Part shown: positions 914-51,651 of the stretch, piece by piece | How positions within the stretch are numbered: the stretch's first letter is position 1 | How the letters are laid out: every line of letters begins with the position of its first letter | Assembly (NCBI RefSeq): GCF_016888515.1 | Contig: NZ_JAFEJK010000001.1 | Span: 2,649,116 to 2,713,115, forward strand | Reading direction: 5' to 3' | Length of the DNA: 64,000 bases | Source: Shimia biformata | GTDB taxonomy: Bacteria > Pseudomonadota > Alphaproteobacteria > Rhodobacterales > Rhodobacteraceae | Program-made: the position numbers and the translations under genes | The notes under the pieces: model-generated | Told to the model about the DNA's origin: nothing | The model's database searches: none | The model's input: the letters and a program-made list of their open reading frames with translations, nothing else

Positions 914-1729
914 GTGCGCAGCCAGTTCAAAGTGTCTGAGCGCAGGACCTGCCGCGTGCTGGGACAACATCGTTCGACACAGCGGCATGCTCCGAGAGGG
1001 CGTGCAGATGAGGACCGGTTGGTCGCTGACATGATCGAACTGGCCAGACAGTACGGCCGCTACGGCTATCGTCGGATAGCGGCTCTGCTCAGGGAGGCGG
1101 GTTGGTCGGTCAGTGATGGTCGTGTCGAACGACTATGGCGACGAGAGGGGCTGAAGGTTCCAGCAAAACAACCGAAGAAGGGGCGGCTCTGGCTGAATGA
1201 CGGATCATGCGTCCGGCTGCGGCCTGAGTATCGAAACCATGTCTGGTCATATGACTTCGTTCATTGTCGGACAGATGATGGGAAGGCGTTCCGCACCTTG
1301 AACACTCTGGATGAGCACAGCCGGGAATGCCTGGCGATCAAGGTGAAGCGCAAGCTGAACTCGACAGATGTGATTGATGTTCTGACAGACCTGTTCATCC
1401 TGCGTAACACTCCTGTCTTCATACGTTCCGACAATGGCCCCGAGTTCGTTGCCCAGGCGGTTCGGGGCTGGATCGCTGCTGTTGGGGGCAAGACCGCCTA
1501 CATCGAACCAGGGTCTCCTTGGGAGAACGGATATTGCGAAAGCTTCAACGGGCGGATGAGGGATGAACTGCTCAACGGCGAGATCTTCTACAGCTTGCGA
1601 GAAGCACAAATCCTGATCGAGCAATGGAGGAAACACTACAACACAAAAAGGCCCCACAGTGCATTGGGTTATCGCCCACCGACCCCGGAAACCATCATCC
1701 CGATGGATCACAGGCCGATCATGCACTAA
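914..1729 (+). CDS. IS3-family transposase OrfB (rve integrase core)
   Basis: This is the catalytic half of the transposase, 271 residues from the first ATG; the natural product probably starts within orfA by -1 frameshift. It contains an HTH_21-like region ([16 protein letters not shown]) and an RNase-H-fold core. The acidic triad is D114 (WSYDF), D173 (RSDNGPE) and E209 ([10 protein letters not shown]); 35 residues separate D173 from E209, which is exact DD(35)E spacing. The C-terminal [18 protein letters not shown] is the family signature. The core is intact, so the element may be active. Confidence 0.88.
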
Positions 1730-4564: not shown

Positions 4565-6118
4565 TTGCTAGACCAGAATGAATTTGAACCTGGCTTTCCC
4601 CAATGGACCGAACTCGGCCAGGTCACAGGCCTTGATCCGTTGGGGATGCAACGCCCGATTGAGGTCGTCTATCAATCTCTCTTGCCTGGAATCAGCACCA
4701 TCACTCTACGTTTGCGCTATTATTCGTTCTTCCCTTGGCTTCTCGACGCCTACGCGCGCCGAAGCGGAAGCACCGCTTTGGAAGATTTCCGGATCTTCCA
4801 GCGGCGTGCCGAGGCCCTTTTGGCGCTGACATGCGCACGTGGCGACTATGAACCTGGTGTCGCTGGAATCGAATGGGCTTTGCGCGTCGTGAGTGGCATC
4901 GGCAGCGACCCGAGTATGGACCAGATCATCGAATTCGCGGACGGCGCCGCTCCCGATGCAAGTCCTGACAATCGTTACCTGAAGAACAAGGGGGGCGCAT
5001 TTGGCGGCATTTACGCCAGCCAGTTGCGCGAAATGAATCTCATCCGCATGGATGATCCCGATCTTCCGGTTCCATATTGCTTGAACGCGGCCATGCCTCT
5101 GGCGGAAGCGCTGCGGAACGAATTGGGCGATCTGGCCGAAGTATTCCTTGCCGCGGTCGAAGCAGGTCGCGTCACCGTTGGAGACTTGGATCGGCTCGCT
5201 CCCTTAAAGCCATCTCGCATCCGCGAAGGGAGCCCGGAGCAGGAAGCCCTCGTCGCGATATTGACCGGCAGGCAACAGAATGCCGGTGCGTCCGACGCCC
5301 TTCGACGCCAAACTCTGCTCAAGCTTCTGGAACTATCCAAAGCCCTCGGTCGGGTGCCCAGTGCAGAAGACGCCAAATGGGCATGGTTCGAAACGAATGA
5401 TCGTGACCGCCCCGATGACGACAACGAGGTTTTGGGGCTCTGGTCTCTGTATCAGGCAAGCGACCTCATGCGTCTGGCCTATGAGGGTATTTTGTCGGCC
5501 GGGTTGCGCATCCTGAACCGCGCTCCTTTCAATCGCCAACCTCTAGCCACGCTTGTGGCAGACATTGCCGAGTGCTCCGGAATCGATGCGACAAAATCGT
5601 GGTCCGACACGCTTACCGCCCTTCCCGCAGAAGCCACGCCGGAAACGACCGCCAGGAATGCGCAGGCCAGACTCTTGGATGCCGAGAAGACGAGTGAGGA
5701 CGCGGACGAAATCCGCGCCGCGCTCGAACTGATCGGCGCGCTATGGGCCAAGCGCGAAGACTATCGAGCCGAGACCATGCGGTGGCTCCGGGCGGCGGAC
5801 CACTTCCGTTCATACGCCACGGAGCTGCGCTACTTCGAGGACCTCCTGGACCGTCCGACTGGGGCGGCCTTGAGCGCAATCATTTCCGAAAGGATCATAA
5901 AACGGCATCAGTGGGTTGCGTCGCGAAAATTCCGCAATCAAAGGGCTTATACCTTTCTGATGGAGCCGGACGACGGCATGCTGCGATACCGCGCCGGCTT
6001 CACGGTTTCCCCGAGCAGTCCGCGGATCGACCAGGCGGTCCAGTTCCTGAGAGACGCAAAATTGCTGAACGATGACGGACCGACGACTTTGGGTTTGAGT
6101 GAAATCGAGCGGCAATGA
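4565..6118 (+). CDS. Hypothetical protein, first gene of PLD-linked pair
   Basis: This 517-residue soluble protein uses a TTG start supported by a GTGGAG ribosome site; no better ATG precedes the conserved-looking N-terminus. The segment PGISTITLRLRYYSFFPW (about residues 41-58) resembles, from memory, the start of DUF6361-type proteins, which have a PGTSTIQTRARYF-like motif. The rest is helical without catalytic motifs I recognise. It overlaps the next gene by ATGA (6115-6118), so the products are probably made together and may form a complex. Base composition is lower in GC and less codon-biased than the core genes, consistent with recent acquisition. Function is unknown; a defence role is inferred from partner and location. 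Confidence 0.7.
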   Translation: MLDQNEFEPGFPQWTELGQVTGLDPLGMQRPIEVVYQSLLPGISTITLRLRYYSFFPWLLDAYARRSGSTALEDFRIFQRRAEALLALTCARGDYEPGVAGIEWALRVVSGIGSDPSMDQIIEFADGAAPDASPDNRYLKNKGGAFGGIYASQLREMNLIRMDDPDLPVPYCLNAAMPLAEALRNELGDLAEVFLAAVEAGRVTVGDLDRLAPLKPSRIREGSPEQEALVAILTGRQQNAGASDALRRQTLLKLLELSKALGRVPSAEDAKWAWFETNDRDRPDDDNEVLGLWSLYQASDLMRLAYEGILSAGLRILNRAPFNRQPLATLVADIAECSGIDATKSWSDTLTALPAEATPETTARNAQARLLDAEKTSEDADEIRAALELIGALWAKREDYRAETMRWLRAADHFRSYATELRYFEDLLDRPTGAALSAIISERIIKRHQWVASRKFRNQRAYTFLMEPDDGMLRYRAGFTVSPSSPRIDQAVQFLRDAKLLNDDGPTTLGLSEIERQ

Positions 6119-8445
6119 AATACTACGACGTTTTTGGAGAAAGCGGATATGACTCCGCGTTCTTGACGACTTACGCCTTTTCAGCTCAGGCGTTCGAGGA
6201 TGTGCCGTTCCCGCGCCTGAGGGGCGCTGGGTGCCGGAATATTTCGGTGTTGGCAGATCAGCGCATGGTAAACACCAGCTTCGAAGAATTCGGTCCGCCG
6301 CGCTTTGCCGGCACGCTCTATCATGTCGTCAAGATTTCCGTACCAGGCGCGTTCCATCCCAAAATCACGTTGCTGAGCGGGGCGGAAAAGGGCCGCTTGC
6401 TGATTGGTTCGGCCAACCTCACGGGCCTGGGGCTGGGCGGAAATAGGGAACTGATTGCCGACATTCCATATACTGCCGAGCGGCCAGAATACTTGCACAT
6501 TTTCGGGCAGGCTCTGCGCTATATCGCGGGTCGCGTTCCCAGCGACGATCCCTGGTTTCCTTCCGCGCTCGAGCGTGCATTCAGGCAGTCGCGATGGCTG
6601 CAAACGGCGTATCTTGATGAAACAAGTGAAAATCTGGAGGATTTGAAGTTAATCATCGACCGGCCAGACGACGCCATCCTTGGGCAGATGGTGGAGGCGA
6701 TTGGAGGGGATCCGATCGAACGGCTGATCGTGATTTCGCCGTTCTGGGATGAAGGGCTGGAAGGCCTCGCGCGGCTTCGCGTCGCTCTTGGAAATCCTGA
6801 AACCGATCTGCTTGTGCAGCCTTCGGCGGGGCAATTCCCGGTGGAGAGCGTGACGCGGCATGACAAGTTGAGGCTTTTCAATGCCGCAGTTGATGGGTCC
6901 TCGAGGTTCGTCCACGCGAAACTTTTCCTCGCACTAGGAGCGACTTGGGATCACGTCATATCAGGCAGCATGAACTGCTCGTTTCCGGCGCTGCTCGGGC
7001 CCGAGGCATCCAAAGGCAATGCCGAGGCAGGGGTCTACAAGCGCGTCACCCGCGGCGCAGCGCTGACCACGCTTGGGTTGGAGGAATATGAGGACCACCC
7101 CCTGCAATTTTCGGACCTTCCGCCGAAAGATCAAAGGGCAACTGCGCTCTCTTCCCCGCCCGCTCCAGCCGATGCGGGCACATTCGAGTTGCACGCGCGT
7201 AGACTGACATGGCGGCCGTCGGTGCACGGCGCCTTCGACGCACGTGAAATACGGCTTCTCGACCGGGACGAGTCGGAGACAGGCCAGGTTCTCGAGATCG
7301 GTGCCGCCTCGGGCAAAAACTGGGAAATTGATCCCGATATGCCGCGCCCTCGGCTCGCGGTGGTCGTGGCGACGGACGGCACCCGCTCCGCGCCGTCATT
7401 CGTGATAGATCTCGATGTGCTGGCCTCTTCAACGCGTCCCGTACAGCGGGGGCGTAAACGCAGGATTATTGATGAACTGGAAGAGCTGGAGCAGGAGGAC
7501 CTGACCATTCTCGAGGCGTTGAACGAATTGGAGATGCTCGACGATTCTTCTCAGAATGAAATATCTGCCCAGAGCAAACCGCACGCGAAAGAAACATCGA
7601 CCGACACGGAAAAAAAAGACCACAAGGTCCTTCCATATGAAGCATTCGTGCAAGCCCGAAATCGTGCTCTTGAGCAGAATCAACATCGTCCCCATTGGGT
7701 CGCTGGCCGGGGAGAAACCGCAGCCAGCGTTATCAACGCCTGCTTGAACCGTCTCGTGGGTTTGGTATCCGAAGATTTTTCAGAGACGGACGAACGCGCC
7801 TTGATGCAGGATGCCTCCACGGATCTTCGCACGACCGAGCCTTCGCAAGACGACGAGAATACGGCGGAAAGTCACGATCACTCTGTTACCAAGCAAGAAA
7901 AATCTGCGCAGCGCGCACGCGCAAAGGCGACAGCTAGGAAGTTCCTGGAAGCCGTTCAATCATTCGAAAAGCGGACCGCATCGTTGAAGGAAAAAAGGAT
8001 CACCACTGCCGAGCTCGTCAGACTGCGCGCCTTGCTCCAGGTTGTCATGGCAAGCGCGGTGCCGATATCGGGCGCATCGCGTGCGCATCAGGTGCTCACG
8101 CTGAACTCAAAGGATGGTACCGAGTGGCCCCGCCTGATCGGCCGTCTGCTCTTGCAGCACTTCGGCACGATCCGCGCTCTCCAGTTGCTCGATGTAGAAG
8201 CGGATGAAGCCGAACACACCCGCGTTCTCGACTATCTCGCCACAGCCAGATTTGCTGCGCGCGCGGCGGTCAAGGGCGCTTCCGCCAGTCCCGCCCTGGC
8301 TCCGATTCAAAGGAAACTCAAAGAGATAGCCGCCGACATCGATACGCAAGTCAAAGCCATCTCAAAGGGCAACGATTCCGACTCAGCCTCTTTGGCTGGC
8401 CTCGAAGAGAAGCTGGAGACGAGGTTTGGTTACCTCTTTTCGTGA
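6115..8445 (+). CDS. Phospholipase-D-like nuclease-family protein, partner of upstream gene
   Basis: This 776-residue protein has two PLD-type half-sites. The first is FHPKITLL with GSANLTG (H81, K83, S99, N101). The second is FVHAKLFL with GSMNCS (H267, K269, S285, N287). The strict D of the HKD motif is not present; the H-x-K ... G-S-x-N pattern is the variant found in restriction-type PLD nucleases. Residues about 340-430 form a beta-rich domain. Residues about 440-640 are charged and probably coiled or disordered, and the C-terminus is helical. One chain with two half-sites could make a complete active site. DNA or RNA cleavage is the likely activity but is inferred. No ATPase or methylase gene lies beside it. 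Confidence 0.75.
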   Translation: MKYYDVFGESGYDSAFLTTYAFSAQAFEDVPFPRLRGAGCRNISVLADQRMVNTSFEEFGPPRFAGTLYHVVKISVPGAFHPKITLLSGAEKGRLLIGSANLTGLGLGGNRELIADIPYTAERPEYLHIFGQALRYIAGRVPSDDPWFPSALERAFRQSRWLQTAYLDETSENLEDLKLIIDRPDDAILGQMVEAIGGDPIERLIVISPFWDEGLEGLARLRVALGNPETDLLVQPSAGQFPVESVTRHDKLRLFNAAVDGSSRFVHAKLFLALGATWDHVISGSMNCSFPALLGPEASKGNAEAGVYKRVTRGAALTTLGLEEYEDHPLQFSDLPPKDQRATALSSPPAPADAGTFELHARRLTWRPSVHGAFDAREIRLLDRDESETGQVLEIGAASGKNWEIDPDMPRPRLAVVVATDGTRSAPSFVIDLDVLASSTRPVQRGRKRRIIDELEELEQEDLTILEALNELEMLDDSSQNEISAQSKPHAKETSTDTEKKDHKVLPYEAFVQARNRALEQNQHRPHWVAGRGETAASVINACLNRLVGLVSEDFSETDERALMQDASTDLRTTEPSQDDENTAESHDHSVTKQEKSAQRARAKATARKFLEAVQSFEKRTASLKEKRITTAELVRLRALLQVVMASAVPISGASRAHQVLTLNSKDGTEWPRLIGRLLLQHFGTIRALQLLDVEADEAEHTRVLDYLATARFAARAAVKGASASPALAPIQRKLKEIAADIDTQVKAISKGNDSDSASLAGLEEKLETRFGYLFS

Positions 8446-33194: not shown

Positions 33195-34346
33195 TTATTG
33201 TCGAACGCCAACGACAAGATCATCCATCACCATCTGCCAATAGTGCAGCGTGTGTACCCTGACCTTTGTGACATTGGACATGTGCGGTGCGTAAACGACC
33301 GGAGCATATGCGCTCAGTTGCACATGATCTGTCGCGACTTTCTCATCTCCGCGCCAAAACTCGAAGATTGCGGTTTCACCCTGGGCAGGCGGCCATGCAA
33401 CGGCAAGATTCACCTGAACAAAGTCGAAGCCATCGGGATGCGAGATGCTCGCCGGGTGGCCCGAACTTGTATATGCCACAAAGCTTCCCGAAGTAGCCCC
33501 GTTGACATACCCTCTGCTGCCGCTCGGAAATGAGTTTTTGATGCTATTGATATTGAACCACTTCAAGCCACCGTACCCGGATGGAACTTTCCTGAGCCAG
33601 TTGGCAGAAATATCATCGAAGGTGAGCGTCGATTGCGCGCCTTCCATCCCGGAACCAGGTTTCAGCGTACCCAGGGTCACAGGGAACTCGGCAATCTCGA
33701 CGGTACGTGACACGTCGCCCGCCGTCAGGACATAGGTGCCGCGCCTGGGGACCACGACTTCAAACTTGTTCCCGTCACGCGCCACTTCCTGCAATGGGAA
33801 ATCTGGGCCCGAGATCATCAATTTGTCTTCGGTCTCCAGAACGCCACTGATTGATTTTTGCGGGACAAGTCCGACGGGTTCCATCATCTCGACCAGCCCG
33901 CCCCCCATGCTTGCTCCGGGGACATCGATGAAGCGCCGGGTTTGCAGCGTGTTATTGGATGTGACTGTCCAGCCTTCCGGGATCAGGGCCTCAAATGTGT
34001 AATCACCCAGTTCATAAAGCGCGGTGCCAGGCACGACACGGGATCCCGGAAAATTGGCAAACCCGTTTTCATTCGCCGTGGCGCGCCAACGCTCGACACC
34101 ATCTTTGGCGAGAACAAAAACAATGCCCGCCAGTGGCTGGTCCCCCAAATCATAGTCGCCGTTTTCGTTACGATCCATGTATGAAAAAGACGACATGTTG
34201 AACGTTTCAGCGGTCCGATCCCACACTTCACGTGGTTCATAAGGGCTTTGAGAGACTGCGGTTTCCGCCCAAAGGCCCGCAATCAGACCAATCGGCAAGG
34301 CCAGCAAAGACCGCCTGATTTTTGAGATGACTAATCCGTTTTTCAT
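33195..34346 (-). CDS. Exported protein with SdrD-B-like calcium-binding repeat
   Basis: This 383-residue protein has a signal peptide (SKIRRSLLALPIGLIAGLWA), then a B-repeat-like domain with the calcium-loop pattern YMDRNENGDYDLGDQPLAG and VFVLAKDG. Further beta domains follow; residues about 245-380 (TLTFDDISANW, VPSGYGGLKWFN) resemble extracellular jelly-roll domains with bound calcium. It is probably surface-exposed or secreted. I chose the ATG at 34346 for the signal peptide; 34379 is an alternative. It lies downstream of, and on the same strand as, the Gly-Gln repeat protein, with a terminator between them. Confidence 0.7.
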   Translation of the reverse strand: MKNGLVISKIRRSLLALPIGLIAGLWAETAVSQSPYEPREVWDRTAETFNMSSFSYMDRNENGDYDLGDQPLAGIVFVLAKDGVERWRATANENGFANFPGSRVVPGTALYELGDYTFEALIPEGWTVTSNNTLQTRRFIDVPGASMGGGLVEMMEPVGLVPQKSISGVLETEDKLMISGPDFPLQEVARDGNKFEVVVPRRGTYVLTAGDVSRTVEIAEFPVTLGTLKPGSGMEGAQSTLTFDDISANWLRKVPSGYGGLKWFNINSIKNSFPSGSRGYVNGATSGSFVAYTSSGHPASISHPDGFDFVQVNLAVAWPPAQGETAIFEFWRGDEKVATDHVQLSAYAPVVYAPHMSNVTKVRVHTLHYWQMVMDDLVVGVRQ

Positions 34347-34406
34347 TCGAAGATTCTTTTTGTTGAAGGGCTTGTCCATGTCCGTCGCGCTTCAGAAGGA
34401 TCACCG

Positions 34407-34426
34407 ATTGCATGAACGATTGCAAT
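34407..34426. promoter_or_regulatory. ATTGCAT / ATTGCAAT pair upstream of SdrD-B-like gene
   Basis: ATTGCAT (34407) and ATTGCAAT (34419) are 12 bp apart, some 60 bp upstream of the 383-residue protein start. The same octamer, 13 bp apart, precedes the truncated MBL gene near base 305. It may be a shared operator or coincidence. Confidence 0.25.
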
Positions 34427-34573
34427 GACAAGGCTTGCCACGGGCCAAGGCGCTTTTGCCTAATGACCTTTCAGCGACGTGCCGCCAGATCAATTGCGTC
34501 GGTCGAATGTGTTTGCGGGCCATTGGGGGCGCAGTCTTTCGAAGCGACGAACAAGACACACTGGGTTGCCGCT

Positions 34574-34614
34574 AAAAAAGGCTAGCCAAACCCGAAAGAT
34601 CAGCTAGCCCTTTT
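34574..34614 (-). terminator. Terminator of the Gly-Gln repeat gene
   Basis: On the minus strand AAAAGGGCTAGC pairs with GGCTAGCCTTTTTT around a 15-base loop, ending in a T run. It lies 50 bp after the repeat gene stop and may work in both directions. Confidence 0.75.
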
Positions 34615-34664
34615 GCTTTCATGGCCAAGCGGCTTTCACGACCGCCGCCAAATTGACGGTGGAT

Positions 34665-35732
34665 TCAGCGATCTAAGCCGTTGCTGCTGTTGTTTATGTT
34701 GCCGCCGTTACCGCCGTTGCCGCCGTTACCGCCGTTACCGCCATTGCCGCCGTTACCGCCGTTACCGCCATTGCCGCCGTTACCGCCGTTGCCGCCGTTA
34801 CCGCCGTTGCCGCCGTTGCCGCCATTGCCGCCGTTACCGCCGTTACCGTCTCCATCGTTTCCGGAGTTCTCATTGCCTTCGGAGTTCCCGCCGCCGGTAC
34901 CGTCACCTCCATTGGTTCCGTTGTTATCCGTATTTGGACCCTGGCCTTGTCCTTGGCCCTGGCCTTGTCCTTGACCCTGACCTTGGCCTTGACCTTGTCC
35001 TTGGCCCTGACCTTGACCCTGGCCTTGTCCTTGACCTTGTCCCTGGCCCTGACCTTGACCCTGGCCCTGACCCTGACCTTGTCCTTGGCCCTGACCTTGA
35101 CCCTGGCCTTGTCCTTGACCTTGTCCCTGGCCCTGACCCTGACCTTGACCCTGGCCTTGACCCTGGCCCTGACCCTGACCTTGTCCTTGGCCCTGACCTT
35201 GACCCTGGCCTTGTCCCTGGCCCTGACCCTGACCCTGACCTTGTCCTTGGCCCTGACCTTGACCCTGGCCTTGTCCTTGACCTTGTCCCTGGCCCTGACC
35301 TTGGCCTTGTCCTTGACCCTGGCCTTGGCCCTGACCTTGACCCTGACCTTGTCCTTGACCCTGACCTTGTCCTTGACCTTGTCCTTGACCCTGACCTTGT
35401 CCTTGACCTTGGCCTTGGCCTTGACCAGGATTCCGTCTCGGACCCTGCCCCTGACCTTGACCTTGACCATCATCTACATACGCAATCGGCGCAGTTCCGA
35501 GCCGGGCTACAATGAGTGGAATACAGGCATTGTCTGGATCTTGTTCAATCAAAGTTTCCAACTTCGCTTGCATCTCCCGACGGGTATCGACATTCAAATA
35601 CCGATCACAGTCGTCCGCCACTTGTTGGGAATGAGCTTGAGTTGCTGACGAAAATGCTGCGACGGATGCCAAAATTGCCATCGTAGACACAGACGAAAAA
35701 AAGGCGCCGTTGCTAAAAAAGCGAAGGAGCAT
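34665..35732 (-). CDS. Exported (Gly-Gln)n / (Gly-Gly-Asn)n repeat protein
   Basis: This 355-residue protein has a signal peptide (hydrophobic residues about 17-30, cleavage near THAHS-like TQAHSQQ). A small globular domain follows (about 36-87; DDCDRYLNVDTRREMQAKL, NACIPLIVARLG). Then come four Gly-Gln units, a GPRRNP break, 81 Gly-Gln units (residues 103-264), an Asn/Gly/Glu linker and 16 Gly-Gly-Asn units before NNSSNGLDR. No anchor or C-terminal sorting motif is visible. The strong GGAGG before the ATG and third-base variation within repeats argue that it is translated. A matrix, adhesin or ice/mineral-interacting role is conceivable; none is shown. Confidence 0.75.
   Translation of the reverse strand: MLLRFFSNGAFFSSVSTMAILASVAAFSSATQAHSQQVADDCDRYLNVDTRREMQAKLETLIEQDPDNACIPLIVARLGTAPIAYVDDGQGQGQGQGPRRNPGQGQGQGQGQGQGQGQGQGQGQGQGQGQGQGQGQGQGQGQGQGQGQGQGQGQGQGQGQGQGQGQGQGQGQGQGQGQGQGQGQGQGQGQGQGQGQGQGQGQGQGQGQGQGQGQGQGQGQGQGQGQGQGQGQGQGQGQGQGQGQGQGQGQGQGQGQGQGQGQGQGPNTDNNGTNGGDGTGGGNSEGNENSGNDGDGNGGNGGNGGNGGNGGNGGNGGNGGNGGNGGNGGNGGNGGNGGNGGNGGNINNSSNGLDR
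34698..34841 (-). repeat. Sixteen 9-bp units encoding Gly-Gly-Asn
   Basis: The 144-bp tract is an array of GGCGGYAAC-type units read on the minus strand, with GGC/GGT variation. It is in frame with the coding sequence. Confidence 0.9.
34941..35426 (-). repeat. Eighty-one 6-bp units encoding Gly-Gln
   Basis: The 486-bp tract uses GGT, GGC and GGG with CAA and CAG, so the hexamer is imperfect at third positions only. All six frames are therefore open across it, which generates spurious ORFs. Confidence 0.93.
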
Positions 35733-43877: not shown

Positions 43878-44453
43878 ATGTCCCGTCTTTCCCATTTGCC
43901 CCCCTTTCGCCGGACCCTGCTTGCCGCCGCGCTGACCGCCCTGGCCGGGCTTGCCGCTGCGCCCGCCAACACCGAATCCCTGCCCGAGGTGCTGGTGCTG
44001 GAGGATCGGCTTGAGGTCGGCGAATACCTGGTTCTGGGCGAGGCGGAACTGGTCGCCTTCCCGACCCTGGGGACCAACTGGCGCGGACGTATTGACACCG
44101 GGGCCACGACGACATCGGTCCACGCCATCAACATCGAGGAATTCGAGCGGGACGGGCAGGACTGGGTGCGGTTCACGCTGCGCAACGAGTTGCTGGACAC
44201 CGAAGTCCCGCACGAGGCGCCGATTGCGCGGATCGTGCAGATTCGCAAACGCGGCACCGAAGACATGCAACGCCGCCCGGTGATCGAAATGACCGTGTCG
44301 ATCGGCGGAGTGCCGCGCAAGATCGAGGTCAACCTGACCGACAGGTCAAACTTCGAGTTTCCGGTGCTGATCGGGCGCAACTACCTTGACGGCATCGCGG
44401 TTGTCGACGTGTCGCGCGCCTATCTGCATGGCGCCGCAGAAAACGAGCAGTAA
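43878..44453 (+). CDS. Exported retropepsin-like protease (PF05618, RimK-associated type)
   Basis: This 191-residue protein has a signal peptide (RRTLLAAALTALAGLAAAP) and a retropepsin-like fold with active-site D73-T-G in GRIDTGATTTSVHA, plus the FEFPVLIGRNYLDG strand. Families labelled ATP-dependent zinc protease contain this domain, though the chemistry is aspartic-type. The ATG at 43878 follows GGAGAA. It is the first gene of a three-gene operon with a transglutaminase-like membrane protein and an ATP-grasp ligase. Confidence 0.82.
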   Translation: MSRLSHLPPFRRTLLAAALTALAGLAAAPANTESLPEVLVLEDRLEVGEYLVLGEAELVAFPTLGTNWRGRIDTGATTTSVHAINIEEFERDGQDWVRFTLRNELLDTEVPHEAPIARIVQIRKRGTEDMQRRPVIEMTVSIGGVPRKIEVNLTDRSNFEFPVLIGRNYLDGIAVVDVSRAYLHGAAENEQ

Positions 44454-44468
44454 TCGGGAGTCACTGAC

Positions 44469-45998
44469 ATGAGCGCAAAGCTGCAACTGAGGCTCATGGT
44501 GGCCGTCCTGCTTCTGATCGGCTTCGGGCTGACCGCCTATAAGGTCGTCGTGCTGAAATTTCCGCTGACACCGGGGGAACAGGAACAGGTCTGGACCGTG
44601 CAGGCACAGCTGCGGTTCACCGCAGACGGCCAGCCGGTCCGCGCCCAGGTCAACCTGCCTGGCATGACGCAGTCGCTCTATGTGGTGGATCAGGGCTCGG
44701 CCCCGCGCGGCTTTGGCTTCTATGTCGAACAGTCCGACGGGTTCCGCCGGGGTGTCTGGGAAGCGCGCGCGCCGCAGGGGGATGTCCGGCTCTATTACCA
44801 GGCCCGCGTCTATGCCTCGGGCGGGGTCGTGGCGAAACGCCCTGCCCCCGACGCGCTGCCGGACCCCGCGCCCTTCGCCGAAGCCGATGTCGAGGCCGCC
44901 AACGACATTCTCGAAGACGCGTTTCGCTATAGCGCCGACAACACCGGCTTTGCCCTGCGCCTGACGAACCGGGTGTTCAACGACATCACCGACCCGGCGG
45001 TCACGACCCTTGCCGGCGACAAGGCCAAGACCGCAGACCGCGCCGCGCTTGTCGTCCGCCTTTTGCAGTCGGCTGAGATCAACGCGGCCGTGGTCCGGGG
45101 TATCCGTCTTGACAAAAGTGAGCGAAAGCAATCGCTTGCCACGGTGATCGAGATCTGGGACGGCACCCGCTGGCAGGTGATCGACCCGGTGGCGGGCAGC
45201 GTCGGCATGCCCGACAATTTCCTGCCCTGGCAAACCGGGGACGAATTCCTGTTCCAGGTCGATGGCGCAAAAGACTCGTCGCTGACCTTCTCGGTGATCC
45301 GCGACCAGATCTCGTCGCGCTCGCTGGCCATCGAACAGGGGCAGTCAAAGGGCGTCGCGCTGATCAACTTCTCGCTGTTTTCGCTGCCGGTGGATGTGCA
45401 GAACACGTTTTCCATGCTGCTGCTGATCCCGATTGGCGCGCTTGTCGTCGTGGTGCTGCGTAACCTTGTCGGGCTCAAGACATCGGGCACCTTCATGCCG
45501 GTCCTGATCGCGCTGGTCTTTGTCCAGACCGAGCTGCTGACGGGCCTGATCCTGTTTGTCACCGTGGTCGGGGTCGGGCTGGTGATCCGGGGTTATCTGA
45601 CCTCGCTCAACCTGTTGTTGGTGCCACGGATCGCCGCGGTTCTGATCGTGGTGATCACGCTTTATCTGATGCTGTCGGTGATCGGCTATCGCATGGGGGT
45701 CGAGGCGGCGCTGTCGGTGACCTTCTTCCCGATGATCATCATCGCCTGGACAATCGAACGCATGTCCGTTCTGGCCGAGGAAGAGGCCATGTGGGACGTT
45801 CTGGTTCAGGGCGGCGGCAGTCTGTTAACTGCGATTCTGGCCTATCTTGCCATGACCAACCGCGAGATCGCCTATCTGACCTTCGCCTATCCCGAGCTGT
45901 TGCTGGTGGTGCTGGCGGTGATCCTTGTCATCGGCCAGTACACCGGCTTCCGGCTGTCCGAACTGCGCCGGTTCGAACCCCTGTCGCGGGGCGAGTGA
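44469..45998 (+). CDS. Inactive transglutaminase fused to seven-helix membrane domain
   Basis: This 509-residue protein has an N-terminal anchor (about 10-30) and a periplasmic domain (about 35-285) with transglutaminase topology. The Cys-His-Asp triad cannot be identified (RAALVVRLLQSAEINAAVV where the Cys helix would be). About seven helices follow (about 305-495; FSMLLLIPIGALVVVVLRNL, SGTFMPVLIALVFVQTELL). The name inactive transglutaminase fused to 7TM exists for such proteins. It ends in a TGATG overlap with the ligase gene. Confidence 0.85.
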   Translation: MSAKLQLRLMVAVLLLIGFGLTAYKVVVLKFPLTPGEQEQVWTVQAQLRFTADGQPVRAQVNLPGMTQSLYVVDQGSAPRGFGFYVEQSDGFRRGVWEARAPQGDVRLYYQARVYASGGVVAKRPAPDALPDPAPFAEADVEAANDILEDAFRYSADNTGFALRLTNRVFNDITDPAVTTLAGDKAKTADRAALVVRLLQSAEINAAVVRGIRLDKSERKQSLATVIEIWDGTRWQVIDPVAGSVGMPDNFLPWQTGDEFLFQVDGAKDSSLTFSVIRDQISSRSLAIEQGQSKGVALINFSLFSLPVDVQNTFSMLLLIPIGALVVVVLRNLVGLKTSGTFMPVLIALVFVQTELLTGLILFVTVVGVGLVIRGYLTSLNLLLVPRIAAVLIVVITLYLMLSVIGYRMGVEAALSVTFFPMIIIAWTIERMSVLAEEEAMWDVLVQGGGSLLTAILAYLAMTNREIAYLTFAYPELLLVVLAVILVIGQYTGFRLSELRRFEPLSRGE

Positions 45999-46957
45999 TG
46001 ATCCGCTTCGCATCCCCCTTTGCGCTGCGGCGGGCCGGTATCGTCGGCATGAACCGCCGCAATGTCGAACTGATCGCCCAGAACAACCCCCGCCACCTTT
46101 ACCCGCTGGTGGACAACAAGCTGATTACCAAGCGCGTGCTTGCCGAGCATGGGCTTGATGCGCCGACGCTGATCGGTGCCGTGCGGCTAACCGGGCAATT
46201 GCGCGACCTGCCTGCGTTTCTTGAACCGCACAAGCGGTTTGTCATCAAGCCGGCGCAGGGCAGCGGCGGCAAGGGCATCCTTGTGGTCGCCGGGCGCGAC
46301 GGTGAGGCCTATCTGCGGCCCTCGGGCGTTGCCTTTGGTTTTGACGAACTGGCCCGCCACGTGAACAACATCCTGTCCGGCCTGTTTTCGCTTGGTGGCA
46401 AGAACGATGTCGCCATGATCGAGGAAATGATCGACTTCGACCCGGTGTTCGAAGGCTATTCCTTCGAAGGTGTGCCGGATATCCGGGTGATCGTCTACAA
46501 GGGCTTCCCGGTGATGGCGATGACCCGGCTGTCGACCGCGGCATCGGATGGCAAGGCAAACCTGCATCAGGGGGCCGTCGGGGTTGGCCTGGATATCGCC
46601 ACGGGCCGCGCGCTGCGTGCGGTCCAGTTCGACAAACCCGTCACCACCCATCCCGACACCGGGGCCGACCTGACCCGGATCACCGTGCCCGGCTGGGACC
46701 GCCTGACCCAACTGTCGGCGCGCTGCTTTGCAGCCACCGGGCTGGGTTACATGGGGGTCGACGTGGTGCTGGACCGGCAGAAAGGGCCACAGATCCTTGA
46801 GCTGAACGCCCGTCCCGGCCTGGCGGTGCAGATCGCCAACGGACGCGGCATGCGGCCCCGGATCGACGCGGTCGAGGCCCTGCTGACCACCGGGTCCGCC
46901 CCATCCAGCCCCGATGACCGCGCGGCCTGGGCGAAAGAGCATATCGCCCCCCTCTGA
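45998..46957 (+). CDS. Alpha-L-glutamate ligase-like ATP-grasp protein
   Basis: This 319-residue cytosolic protein has an N-terminal GMNRRNVELIAQNNPRHLYP signature and the ATP-grasp core. The core shows KRFVIKPAQGSGGKGILVV as lysine and P-loop-like region, FEGVPDIRVIVYKGFPVMAM, and metal ligands in ILELNARPGL. It would add an amino acid to an unknown acceptor, like RimK. It follows the membrane protein with one base of overlap, so three products likely act together. Confidence 0.85.
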   Translation: MIRFASPFALRRAGIVGMNRRNVELIAQNNPRHLYPLVDNKLITKRVLAEHGLDAPTLIGAVRLTGQLRDLPAFLEPHKRFVIKPAQGSGGKGILVVAGRDGEAYLRPSGVAFGFDELARHVNNILSGLFSLGGKNDVAMIEEMIDFDPVFEGYSFEGVPDIRVIVYKGFPVMAMTRLSTAASDGKANLHQGAVGVGLDIATGRALRAVQFDKPVTTHPDTGADLTRITVPGWDRLTQLSARCFAATGLGYMGVDVVLDRQKGPQILELNARPGLAVQIANGRGMRPRIDAVEALLTTGSAPSSPDDRAAWAKEHIAPL

Positions 46958-47077
46958 CACCCGCCTCTTCCTGCGCTTCCCCGGTCCATCCGGGGGTTGC
47001 GGTTTGGTTGTTAACAGGTTTACCTCTCTGCAACATTCAGACCCGGGTTCATCGGGCAGATGGGAGGACATGACGCA

Positions 47078-50000
47078 ATGGGGATGCGTTTCTTTTCGGA
47101 CAAGAACAGGCCGGTGCATCTGGGCCCGTACCCGCTGGAGCGGTTGGTGCGGGGCAATCAGCCTGACCTGTCAACCGTGCCGCCGATGGCGGATCTGGAC
47201 TTTCGCCGGATGGACACGCCGCATTCGCTGGTCAATGCGATGGGTGAATACCAGGCGATGATGGACGCGATCCGCGACGGGCTGGTGAACAAGGTGCCAT
47301 CGGTCACGCCGGATAGTTTAACAGAACGCGCCAATCACTTGAAATCATTTGGCTATTTCAACGACGCGTCGATGGTCGGCATCTGCCGTCTGACCCCCGA
47401 GATGATGTTGGACACCCCGCGCCGCAACCCCGACATCGACCGTCTGGCGCATGATCTGAAGACCCGCCAAACCAAGACGCTGGCCGCCGGGATCGACATG
47501 ATCATGGCCGATCTGAAGGACTCGATGGAGGCCCCGCCGTCGGGCATCGAGGGCCATACCCACGCCATCGTCTATCTTTATGAACATCACCGCGATCCGT
47601 CGCCCACCGAACCCGGCGCGGACTGGATCATCGACGCGCAAGGCCACCGCGCCTGCCTGCGCGCCACGGAAACCGCCTGTGTCATCGGCAACTACCTGCG
47701 GCTTCTGGGGCATGGCGCGCGCAGCCATAGCCTGACATCGACCGATATCGACCTGAACAAGGCGGCGGTGGCGGCGGGGCTGGCCTGGGTCGAGAATGGC
47801 CAGCTGGTCGCGCCCTTCCTGGGCACCGGGTTCGGGGTGGCCGTTGTCACCACCTCGTTTGCCCTTGCCCCGGATATGCCGCTCTCGGCCCAACAGCCCT
47901 ATTTCCAGACCCACGGGCCGGGCTGGTGGCTGGGCAAGGGGCACGCGAAATCCGCCTTCACCCGCGACCCCTATCGCAAGCGGCGCTATGTCGACGGGGC
48001 GCACCCGTTTGAGCGGTTGAAACGGGTCGAAACGCCGACGACCTTCATCGACGAGCCCAACGTCGCCCGTGTCCCCAAACGCGCCGACATGTTCGCCCGC
48101 GCCCAGTTTGGCGACATGGGCAAGGCTAACCAGCAGAACGCCACGGGCGGCTATTACGCCCGCAAAGCGGCCCCTTCGATGGCGCAGCGCCGCGCGCTGG
48201 GGGCGTTCGTGCTGTTGCAGGATGGCGAAAGCGCCCATGGCCGCCGCCCCTCGGATGCCGAAAAGAACGCGCAGAACGTCAAGGCGGCCAGCTATTTCCT
48301 TGGCATTGACGCCGTGGGCATTTCGCGTTGCCCGGACTGGGCCTGGTATTCCCATGACGCCACCGGTAACCCGATCGACCCGCCCCATGATCAGGCGATC
48401 TCGATGATCGTGGATCAGGGGTACGAGACCATGGAAGGCGCCAGCGGGGACGACTGGATCAGCGTCGCCCAATCCATGCGCGCCTATCTGAGATTCTCGC
48501 TTCTGGGTGGAGTTATTGCCAAGCAAATCAGGAACTTGGGATACAAAGCTAAAGCGCATTCCGTAATGGATGGAGAGGTCCTGCAACCGCCCCTGTTGCT
48601 GCTTTCCGGCCTTGGGGAAGTCAGCCGCATCGGCGAGGTCATCCTGAACCCCTACCTTGGCCCGCGCCTCAAATCCGGTGTCGTCACCACCGACATGCCG
48701 ATGGCCCATGACAGGCCGATTGATTTCGGTCTGCAGAACTTCTGCGAGAACTGCAACAAATGCGCCCGCGAATGCCCCTCGGGGGCGATCACGGCGGGTC
48801 CGAAGCTGATGTTCAACGGCTATGAGATCTGGAAATCCGACAGCCAGAAATGCGCCACCTATCGCATTGGCACCCTTGGCGGCGCGATGTGCGGGCGCTG
48901 TATGAAGACCTGCCCGTGGAACCTGGAGGGGCTCTTTGCCGAAGCGCCCTTCCGCTGGGCGGCGTCGCATATCCCCGCAGCCGCGCCGATGCTGGCGAAA
49001 CTTGACGACAAGGTCGGCAACGGCGGGCTGAACCCGGTCAAGAAATGGTGGTGGGACCTGGAGTTGCAGCCCGAGGGCAATTACGAGCCCACGGAACATC
49101 CCGTGAATGAACGCGGACTGCAACCCGATCTGGACCTGAAATACGAGGATCAGACTCTGGCCGTCTATCCCGCCCCGCTGGCGCCGCACCCGTGGCCCTA
49201 TCCCTTCCCGATGGACCGCGAAAAGGGGATCGAGGCATATCAGGCGATGATTACTGCCGAGGAATACAAGCTGCGGCTGGATCGCGGAGAACGCGGCCAT
49301 ATCCATGAATACAAGCTGCCCGGCGACGCGCCGGTGGTGCAGGTGGTGATTTCCAGGGCCGAGAAAATGACCGCCGACGTCACCAAGTACGAGTTCCGCA
49401 CCCCGGACGGCAGCCCCCTGCCCGCGTGGACCGCTGGCGCACATCTCGACATCGTGGTCGCGCCGGAATTCCTGCGGCAATATTCCATGTCGGGCGACCC
49501 GGCGGACCGGTCAAAATACCAGATCGGCGTGCTGCGCGAGGATCAGGGGCGCGGCGGATCGAAGCTGATGCACCGGATTTTCAACGAGGGCCGGCGGATC
49601 TTTATCTCGAAGCCGATCAACCATTTCGAACTGGACGAGAGCGCGACCAAAACCTTCCTGATGGGCGGCGGCATCGGCATCACCCCGATGATCGCCTTTG
49701 CCCACCGTCTGCACGCTTTGGGCCATGAATTCGAACTGCACTATTCCGCCAGCCGCAAGGACGGCGCGGGGTTCCTTGACGATCTGGCGGCGATGCCGTG
49801 GGCGGATCGCGTGCATCTGCATTTCTCGGATCAGGGCAGCCGCGCCGATCTGGATCAGGTGTTGACCGGCTATCAACCCGGCTGGCATGTCTATACCTGC
49901 GGGCCGGATCGCTACATGGACGGGGTAATTGCGGCGGCCGAACGGCAGGGTTTCCCGGACGAGGCCCGCCACCTTGAGTATTTCAGCGTCCCCGAGACCC

Positions 50001-50278
50001 CTGACTGGGTCAACCACGACTTTACCATCCGCCTGAAGGATGGCCGGGAACTTATTGTTCCAAAGGATAAAACCGCGACTGATGTTCTTGGCGAAAACGG
50101 CATCCACGTCGATGTGAAATGCTCCGATGGCATCTGCGGCGTCTGCAAATGCGGGCTGGTGTCGGGCGACGTCGAACACCGCGATTTTGTCCTGTCCAAG
50201 GCGCAGCGGGAAACGTCGATCATCCTGTGCCAAAGCCGGGCCGCAGAAAAAGACGGGGTGATCGAGATCGACCTATAG
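47078..50278 (+). CDS. Soluble reductive dehalogenase fused to its own reductase (BhbA/NpRdhA-like)
   Basis: This 1066-residue protein has a cobalamin-dependent reductive dehalogenase part (about 1-680). Its two 4Fe-4S motifs are CENCNKCARECP (C556, C559, C562, C566) and C592-x12-C605-x2-C608-x3-C612. An FAD/FMN-NAD(P)H reductase follows (about 760-970; FLRQYSMSGDP, GGGIGITPMIAFAHRL, YTCGPDRYM). The C-terminal plant-type 2Fe-2S domain shows CSDGICGVCKCG. There is no Tat signal, so unlike respiratory RdhA it works in the cytoplasm and can take electrons from NAD(P)H. Removal of halogen from halophenols is the expected reaction. The start at 47078 follows GGAGGA. Confidence 0.88.
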   Translation: MGMRFFSDKNRPVHLGPYPLERLVRGNQPDLSTVPPMADLDFRRMDTPHSLVNAMGEYQAMMDAIRDGLVNKVPSVTPDSLTERANHLKSFGYFNDASMVGICRLTPEMMLDTPRRNPDIDRLAHDLKTRQTKTLAAGIDMIMADLKDSMEAPPSGIEGHTHAIVYLYEHHRDPSPTEPGADWIIDAQGHRACLRATETACVIGNYLRLLGHGARSHSLTSTDIDLNKAAVAAGLAWVENGQLVAPFLGTGFGVAVVTTSFALAPDMPLSAQQPYFQTHGPGWWLGKGHAKSAFTRDPYRKRRYVDGAHPFERLKRVETPTTFIDEPNVARVPKRADMFARAQFGDMGKANQQNATGGYYARKAAPSMAQRRALGAFVLLQDGESAHGRRPSDAEKNAQNVKAASYFLGIDAVGISRCPDWAWYSHDATGNPIDPPHDQAISMIVDQGYETMEGASGDDWISVAQSMRAYLRFSLLGGVIAKQIRNLGYKAKAHSVMDGEVLQPPLLLLSGLGEVSRIGEVILNPYLGPRLKSGVVTTDMPMAHDRPIDFGLQNFCENCNKCARECPSGAITAGPKLMFNGYEIWKSDSQKCATYRIGTLGGAMCGRCMKTCPWNLEGLFAEAPFRWAASHIPAAAPMLAKLDDKVGNGGLNPVKKWWWDLELQPEGNYEPTEHPVNERGLQPDLDLKYEDQTLAVYPAPLAPHPWPYPFPMDREKGIEAYQAMITAEEYKLRLDRGERGHIHEYKLPGDAPVVQVVISRAEKMTADVTKYEFRTPDGSPLPAWTAGAHLDIVVAPEFLRQYSMSGDPADRSKYQIGVLREDQGRGGSKLMHRIFNEGRRIFISKPINHFELDESATKTFLMGGGIGITPMIAFAHRLHALGHEFELHYSASRKDGAGFLDDLAAMPWADRVHLHFSDQGSRADLDQVLTGYQPGWHVYTCGPDRYMDGVIAAAERQGFPDEARHLEYFSVPETPDWVNHDFTIRLKDGRELIVPKDKTATDVLGENGIHVDVKCSDGICGVCKCGLVSGDVEHRDFVLSKAQRETSIILCQSRAAEKDGVIEIDL

Positions 50279-50287
50279 GGCCAGGAC

Positions 50288-51601
50288 CTAGCGCCCGATC
50301 ACGATATCGGCCCGCAACCCGCCCAACGTGTCGCTTTCGCCAAGGCGCAGAACGCCGCCATGGGCGCGCGCGACATCGGCGGCAATGGCCATGCCCAGCC
50401 CCACGCCCGACCCCTTGTCCTGATTGCGCGCCGGATCAAGCCGCACAAAAGGTTTCAGCGCCTCGTCGCGCCGATCCGCCGGGATACCCGGCCCGTCGTC
50501 ATCCACCCGGATGCGCAGGGATTTGTCGCTGAGCCGGACCGAGACCTCGGCCCGCTCACCATAGCGCACCGCGTTGTTGATCAGGTTCTCGACCGCGCGG
50601 CGGATGCCGACGCGATGCAGCGGCATTTTTCCCTGCCCCTCGATCTTGGCGATGCTGACCGGCAACCCGGCCCGCGCGCTGTCCTCGACGATCTGGGCAA
50701 CGAAATCGGCCGGGTCGGTCATCTCGGGTTCGCCCTCGGTGGCACCGCGGGCAAAGCTGAGGAATTCATCCAGAAGGCGCTGCATGTCCTCGACATCGCG
50801 TTCCAGTGGTTCGCGGTCCTCATCCTCAAGCAGGGACAGCCCCAGTTTCAGCCGCGTCAGCGGCGTGCGCAGGTCGTGACTGACCCCGGACAACATCATG
50901 GTGCGCTGTTCGATCTGCCGTTCGATGCGCGAGCGCATGTCGAGAAAGGCATTGCCCGCAGCCCGCACCTCGACCGCGCCGGACGGCGTGTAAGGCACGT
51001 TGCGCCCGCGCCCAAAAGCCTCAGCCGCCGCTGCCAGCCGGGTGATCGGGCGCAGCTGGTTCCTGAGATAGACGAAGGCGATCAGCGTCATCAGCGCGCC
51101 AAACACCAGCATGTTGACCAGAAGCTGGTGCGGATTGGAGGCAGACATCCGCTCACGCGCGACCTCGATCCGTACCGGCCCCATCTGCGAATTGGCAAAT
51201 ACCACGACCTGCCGGTCGTCCGGCAGCTGCACCGCACTGATGGTGGGCACCAGATCGCGCAGCGTGCGGATCACGACCAGACCCGAGAAATCGTACCACC
51301 GTCGCGAATCCGCATATTCGATCGGCACGTCGAACGTGATGTCATACCCCAGCCGCCGCGCCAGCCTTTCAATGTCGCCGCGCGGGGCGGACACATTACC
51401 TTCGACGTATAACTCATTGATAAACAGATCAAGTTCGCGGGACACAGTCCGCGACATCTGCTCGGTCACGCCTTCGAAATGGCGTTGGATGAACACAACC
51501 GACACCAGAAGTTGCAGGGTCACCACGGGCAGGATCAGGATCAGCGCCGCCCGCCCGTAAAGTCCGCGTGGCATGTACCGTTTGAGCCAGTTGAATGTCA
51601 T
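50288..51601 (-). CDS. Sensor histidine kinase (EnvZ-like), orphan
   Basis: This 437-residue inner-membrane kinase has one helix near residues 14-35 and a periplasmic domain (about 40-155). A second helix is at about 160-180, followed by HAMP, then the dimerisation box VSHDLRTPLTRLKLGL with the phosphoacceptor His. The HATPase_c domain has RRAVENLINNAVRYGE, DDDGPGIP and GSGVGLGMAIA. No response regulator is adjacent, although EnvZ-type kinases usually follow an OmpR gene. It converges on the dehalogenase gene, 9 bp apart at the stops. The start MTFNWLKRYM is chosen over an upstream ATG. Confidence 0.88.
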   Translation of the reverse strand: MTFNWLKRYMPRGLYGRAALILILPVVTLQLLVSVVFIQRHFEGVTEQMSRTVSRELDLFINELYVEGNVSAPRGDIERLARRLGYDITFDVPIEYADSRRWYDFSGLVVIRTLRDLVPTISAVQLPDDRQVVVFANSQMGPVRIEVARERMSASNPHQLLVNMLVFGALMTLIAFVYLRNQLRPITRLAAAAEAFGRGRNVPYTPSGAVEVRAAGNAFLDMRSRIERQIEQRTMMLSGVSHDLRTPLTRLKLGLSLLEDEDREPLERDVEDMQRLLDEFLSFARGATEGEPEMTDPADFVAQIVEDSARAGLPVSIAKIEGQGKMPLHRVGIRRAVENLINNAVRYGERAEVSVRLSDKSLRIRVDDDGPGIPADRRDEALKPFVRLDPARNQDKGSGVGLGMAIAADVARAHGGVLRLGESDTLGGLRADIVIGR

Positions 51602-51651
51602 GGCCAAAGGATGCAACGTCCATGGCACGAAGAAAAGCCCAAGGACGCCCT

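Follow-up and report, generated by a model that had tools for sequence, protein, structure and literature searches.

The 64,000-nucleotide stretch of the Shimia biformata genome analysed here (assembly GCF_016888515.1, contig NZ_JAFEJK010000001.1, positions 2,649,116 to 2,713,115; hereafter the window) carries an open reading frame (ORF), rdhA, whose product is, as judged from its sequence, a cytoplasmic-type reductive dehalogenase (RdhA) fused to a phthalate dioxygenase reductase (PDOR) module with flavin, NAD(P)H and 2Fe-2S sites (Table 1). Alternative in-frame ATG codons lie at 47060, which would give a protein of 1072 residues, and at 47084; the spacing of the GGGAGG element suits the ATG at 47078, which is therefore the likeliest start. 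The G+C content at third codon positions (GC3) is 0.79, similar to that of genes nearby. The N terminus, MGMRFFSDKNRP, bears no twin-arginine (Tat) signal when judged by eye, without a signal-peptide program, as the first-pass annotation had claimed, so that on this reading the protein lacks the Tat signal peptide by which respiratory RdhA enzymes are recognized. No membrane partner RdhB is named among ten neighbours in the Pfam scan, small proteins lying outside that scan.

The same annotation had placed a cobalamin-type RdhA, two Fe-S motifs, a flavin reductase and a 2Fe-2S ferredoxin on one chain, and this arrangement is upheld by family, structural and motif matches. The NCBIfam model TIGR02486 (‘reductive dehalogenase’) scores 186.8 bits against a cut-off of 160.35 (on the 1072-residue form), and the best solved relative is NpRdhA (4ras, 6zxu, 6zy0; E 3.6e-163 for 4ras_A), which aligns with residues 3–108 and 159–744. 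The C-terminal part, approximately residues 754–1062, finds phthalate dioxygenase reductase 2pia (E 1.5e-55) or P450 fusions bearing such a module. When the AlphaFold model is submitted to Foldseek, NpRdhA chains occupy the first 14 ranks (TM 0.77–0.78, normalised by target length), followed by 6kbh and 2pia. Across the whole genome the reductive dehalogenase (RDH) model yields three matches. Two fall within this ORF, one on the catalytic domain and one on the N-terminal half, and the third is a separate gene, QueG (423.4 bits on TIGR00276). The Pfam family PF13486 (Dehalogenase) gives no match to the window protein at E<=1, let alone at its gathering score; nor does it match BhbA, the type member, or anything in the Shimia genome, where the controls are equally silent. 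Since BhbA is also unmatched, PF13486 does not reach the fusion clade, and its silence on all four fusions tried (BhbA among them) means that Pfam-based surveys may overlook these enzymes.

The catalytic machinery is intact. A first alignment set 86 fusions against NpRdhA (the window protein, 80 relatives and five plasmid copies, BhbA among them), and the catalytic Tyr and Lys that the first-pass annotation had wished to see confirmed against BhbA and NpRdhA are both present. NpRdhA residues F291, S422, M423, Y426, K488 and R552 (F339, S466, M467, Y470, K532 and R596 in the window protein), together with the eight cluster cysteines, are identical in all 86 full-length fusions. In a larger alignment of 179 fusion rows the same residues recur in every row, save that F291 is found in 178, with one gap. 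The flavin, NAD(P)H and 2Fe-2S motifs of the C-terminal module are largely conserved among the fusions. The region of the second halogen site is altered: the window protein has Met, Val and Val in place of NpRdhA F290, A419 and N452, and the same replacements occur in 159, 154 and 175 of the 179 rows, respectively. A supposed loss of the salt bridge at NpRdhA K307 was dropped, as the alignment at this position shifts between methods.

Table 1. Features of the rdhA locus, in coordinates of the window
Feature	Position	Strand	Basis or remark
GGGAGG, ribosome-binding-like	47062..47067	+	about 10 bases 5' of ATG 47078; presumed role
Self-sufficient RdhA-PDOR fusion	47078..50278	+	1066 codons and stop, uninterrupted frame
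N-terminal half, putative vestigial duplicate of the cobalamin domain	47324..47884	+	weak second RDH-model match, positions 8-199, E 3.6e-6
Insert, residues 109-158	47402..47551	+	alignment: present in BhbA, absent from NpRdhA
Catalytic RDH domain	48389..49018	+	TIGR02486 positions 88-312
Tyr470 (NpRdhA Tyr426), predicted proton donor	48485..48487	+	86/86 and 179/179 rows
Lys532 (NpRdhA Lys488)	48671..48673	+	alignment, both row sets
First 4Fe-4S motif, C556-x2-C-x2-C-x3-C (C556-C566)	48743..48775	+	motif and alignment
Arg596 (NpRdhA Arg552)	48863..48865	+	alignment, both row sets
Second 4Fe-4S motif, C605-x2-C-x3-C (C605-C612), with C592	48890..48913	+	motif and alignment
PDOR-like module, residues 753-1066	49334..50275	+	sequence and Foldseek matches to 2pia, 6kbh
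RQYS, residues 800-803, which we take to be the flavin site	49475..49486	+	read in sequence
GGGIGITP, residues 863-870, presumably the NAD(P)H site	49664..49687	+	read in sequence
Plant-type 2Fe-2S cysteines 1015, 1020, 1023, 1051	50120..50230	+	motif reading

What reaction could this enzyme carry out? By analogy with its homologues, it very probably uses NADPH to remove bromine or iodine from phenol-like compounds. A guide is JtRdhA of Jhaorihella thermophila (WP_104007082). That enzyme draws on NADPH, and coupling is tight both in air and in its absence; it removes bromine or iodine from ortho-halophenols, while chloro compounds only inhibit it (PMC10463259). The initial suggestion that the fused enzyme operates under oxic conditions with NAD(P)H is thereby substantiated for this architecture and would extend to the window protein by analogy. 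In the scheme that we propose, NADPH would reduce the flavin of the C-terminal module, from which single electrons would travel by way of the 2Fe-2S cluster and both 4Fe-4S clusters to the base-off cobalamin of the middle domain, as in the homologues. The cobalt would then meet the halogen of an ortho-halogenated phenol, and Tyr470, acting with Lys532 and Arg596, would supply the proton, again as in the homologues, with release of bromide or iodide; the N-terminal domain copy would be vestigial. The electron path, proton donor, use of NADPH, air tolerance and preference for bromine and iodine are all carried over from NpRdhA and JtRdhA in this scheme.

The enzyme kind is already known and is common among the relatives of the host. 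A tblastn search of genome contigs (E<=1e-3) found 584 relatives, some of which may match through a single module. The best 80 of these all exceed 1000 residues, are 72.8–80.6% identical to the window protein and belong, by title, mostly to genera of the Rhodobacteraceae/Roseobacteraceae, along with some Rhizobiaceae-type genomes and numerous metagenome-assembled genomes (MAGs). Of 295 family genomes sampled, 170 match at E<=1e-30, many through the reductase module alone; a hand count of alignments that span 1000 residues or more in a single stop-free frame places the fusion in 109 of the 295. Six further genomes hold broken or partial copies and one holds an unfused, NpRdhA-like form. Among 72,556 plasmid records, 8 carry at least 80% of the fusion in one place, including pBHB. 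In a FastTree phylogeny of 179 rows and NpRdhA, the nearest kin of the window copy are those of Shimia thalassica (81%) and Actibacterium lipolyticum.

Which compounds would such an enzyme meet in nature? Relative rates reported for JtRdhA are highest with 3,5-dibromo-4-hydroxybenzoate (100) and 3-bromo-4-hydroxyphenylacetate (99.3), followed among bromo compounds by 3-bromo-4-hydroxybenzoate (49.7) and 2,6-dibromophenol (6.8); the iodo series comprises 3,5-diiodo-4-hydroxybenzoate (84), 2-iodophenol (71.6) and 2,4,6-triiodophenol (65.5) (PMC10463259). Genes that mark a route for the dehalogenated product of the benzoates are present in the Shimia genome, with pobA (4-hydroxybenzoate 3-monooxygenase) at C25:108484-109650 and pcaH about 0.5 kb away at C25:107303-107971; cobN also scores over its cut-off, a flagged TGA being the terminal stop of its open frame of 1117 codons. 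Since cobN, pobA and pcaH are all found, the genome bears marks of both the B12 and the 4-hydroxybenzoate routes, away from rdhA. Genome-level co-occurrence of rdhA and pobA was set aside as evidence, being uninformative because pobA exceeds its cut-off in 191 of the 295 genomes regardless.

For the neighbourhoods of rdhA, we pooled 187 loci (80 from named genomes, 6 from plasmids, 100 from the family sample and the window) with 180 distinct rdhA copies, 157 of which are flanked by 1.5 kb or more on each side, the other 23 having a shorter flank on one side. A conserved operon was rejected, since the most frequent neighbour family within 4 kb, a single-linkage cluster of short-chain dehydrogenases/reductases, occurs in just 25 of 180 loci. 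Within the same distance pobA is present at ten pooled loci. It lies no more than 260 bp from rdhA at eight of the 180 distinct loci, whose rdhA copies are 73–76% identical to that of the window, and 2.3–3.4 kb away in two BhbA-type plasmids. All eight adjacent genes exceed the TIGR02360 cut-off and they span four arrangements, upstream or downstream and on the same or the opposite strand. The near flanks, 586 kb in all, contain 8 pobA, compared with 3 in the 1.56 Mb farther out (Poisson 2.4e-5, ignoring kinship), or 5 against 2 (Poisson 1.1e-3, ignoring kinship) when four loci chosen after the pobA coordinates were known are omitted. On the tree, the adjacency label requires 6 changes for the 8 loci, at least 5 of them by starred branches, compared with a mean of 7.9 for shuffled labels, which reach so low a value in 3 of 500 shuffles; because 6 changes are needed, the adjacency is somewhat clustered yet not one event. 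By source, it is found in 5 of the 80 named loci and in 3 of the 99 family-sample fusions covered (of 108 besides that of the window), with none in the first 60 family loci examined, which are the more distant ones. The open-access PMC literature searched did not yield the marine rdhA-pobA pairing.

The preferences of JtRdhA and the adjacency of rdhA and pobA lead us to favour brominated and iodinated 4-hydroxybenzoates over simple bromophenols. We consider it highly likely that the window protein is an NADPH-fed, aerobic-type debrominase and deiodinase of ortho-halophenols, whose likeliest role would be to open halogenated para-hydroxy acids to the pobA-pca route. The likeliest physiological substrates are brominated or iodinated para-hydroxy aromatic acids, and 3-halo- and 3,5-dihalo-4-hydroxybenzoates (Br or I) would in this way enter the genome's own pobA-pca route as carbon sources. 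More tentatively, and with somewhat more doubt than confidence, we suggest that marine self-sufficient RdhAs serve as the entry step of a scattered route for natural halogenated 4-hydroxybenzoates, removing Br or I, with PobA and the pca enzymes next in line, and that rdhA and pobA have been joined repeatedly, in differing orientations, in marine Alphaproteobacteria.

Several observations weigh against the proposed enzyme and role. The pobA link, suggestive as it is, concerns a small minority of loci: 172 of 180 have no adjacent pobA (one flank being shorter than 1.5 kb in 23 of the 180), the five named loci that do are all MAG contigs, and within the window rdhA has no aromatic-catabolism neighbour, pobA included. 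Because F290, A419 and N452 are replaced, the substrate scope may differ from that of NpRdhA. The AlphaFold model, finally, has a mean pLDDT of 69 and is weak at the clusters, for which reason we make no claim about pocket geometry.

The same enzyme might act instead on simple marine bromophenols, for detoxification or as carbon, as the first-pass annotation had proposed. Bromophenols are abundant in marine settings (PMC13101508), and JtRdhA does accept 2,6-dibromophenol, 2,4,6-triiodophenol and tetrabromobisphenol A (TBBPA) (PMC10463259). The first of these, however, is turned over at only 6.8% of the rate with 3,5-dibromo-4-hydroxybenzoate (PMC10463259), and where a catabolic gene touches rdhA at all, it is pobA, which acts on 4-hydroxybenzoate; bromophenols as the natural substrates are only loosely supported and appear unlikely. 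Somewhat less likely still is a chief use on halogenated 4-hydroxyphenylacetate or tyrosine breakdown products. Here 3-bromo-4-hydroxyphenylacetate equals the best JtRdhA substrate and supports growth of an engineered Escherichia coli W (PMC10463259), the Shimia genome contains hmgA, and in 7 of 180 loci rdhA has a gene of the fumarylacetoacetate-hydrolase family no more than 4 kb away; yet none of 13 HpaE matches in the genome rises above the cut-off, and the single hydrolase copy scanned falls under the cut-offs of its six listed families. That dehalogenation has been lost in favour of the reduction of some other substrate is very improbable: three secure pocket positions are unlike NpRdhA, but the window protein keeps its core catalytic and cluster residues intact, and these are identical across the set. 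An epoxyqueuosine-reductase-like function can be dismissed almost with certainty, for in spite of the shared class III B12 membership (PMC10463259) and a weak match to TIGR00276, the latter reaches 24.4 bits against a cut-off of 200, the genome holds its own QueG and the fusion carries the dehalogenase residues.

If the more tentative suggestion on the marine self-sufficient RdhAs is correct, roughly one in three of the family's sampled genera may use halogenated para-hydroxy acids as aerobic carbon. Enzymes of this type, in which NADPH drives debromination in air, would also be relevant to the clean-up of flame retardants and to the marine cycle of bromine and iodine. The pairing of rdhA with pobA, rare yet recurrent, brings the question of the natural substrate within direct reach of experiment.

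Directly 5' of rdhA in the window, at 43881-46957 (+), zinc-protease-like, 7TM-transglutaminase and sugar-transfer-type ATP-grasp genes stand in series, the last of them ending 120 bases upstream of rdhA (Pfam); this trio shows no clustering with the genes near rdhA in the 80 named relatives. On the downstream side a HisKA/HATPase kinase gene (ORF 50288-51628, minus strand; Pfam) converges on rdhA, and the kinase recurs at two loci of the 80 named relatives and at four other pooled loci. Elsewhere, a MarR-type regulator lies up to 4 kb upstream of rdhA in 16 of 180 loci, in 15 of them within about 100 bp, and the gap is often close to 10 bp; these copies are more distant (60–70.5% identity), and the window has no such regulator upstream of rdhA. 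Farther off in the window, two overlapping ORFs at 4565-8445 (+) give weak PADLOC matches to ZacA (1.2e-7) and ZacB (1.5e-12), the ZacB-like ORF also having a PLD-like Pfam match under the cut-off, and may possibly form a Zac-like anti-phage pair. A few kb from them, at 914-1729 (+), is a transposase-like ORF with integrase core domains, which we presume to be of the IS3 type. Two low-GC3 ORFs (0.61 and 0.46, against 0.79 for rdhA) at 33195-35732 (-) have no Pfam family over cut-off.

How does the window protein compare with the characterized members of this group? QueG is likewise a class III B12/Fe-S enzyme; it has another substrate and no reductase module, and in this genome it is a separate gene. 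Ros_A3X954 of Roseobacter sp. MED193 is a roseobacter debrominase that also lacks a Tat signal, but it is oxygen-sensitive, and its cluster motifs at residues 283-294 and 337-345 mark it as a short protein of another branch; the same motif positions rule out its identity with the MED193 copy of the fusion (74% identity to the window protein) (PMC13101508). NpRdhA, whose substrate complexes have been described (PMC7565698), shares 43.6% identity over 681 positions, the catalytic residues and the top fold match, and differs in the absence of both the reductase module and the insert; it also reduces chlorinated compounds (PMC10463259). BhbA of the Comamonas sp. 7D-2 plasmid pBHB (WP_015585978), homologues of which are stated to be widespread in roseobacters (PMC13101508), has the same architecture, catalytic residues and insert at 51.6% identity over 1061 positions. 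It carries F, S and A at positions 290, 419 and 452, where the window protein has M, V and V, and its gene, unlike that of the window, is part of a catabolic cluster that also holds protocatechuate 4,5-dioxygenase genes and a 281-residue pobA-like ORF. JtRdhA is compared here by its published description: its activity is proven, whereas the window protein is known from its sequence, and it is about 39% identical to NpRdhA, with Y426, K488 and R552 kept (PMC10463259). Both come from marine bacteria and share the duplicated B12 domain, two 4Fe-4S clusters, the PDOR fusion, the lack of a Tat signal, the three catalytic residues, most pocket residues and the fusion-specific insert relative to NpRdhA, which folds over the active site (PMC10463259).

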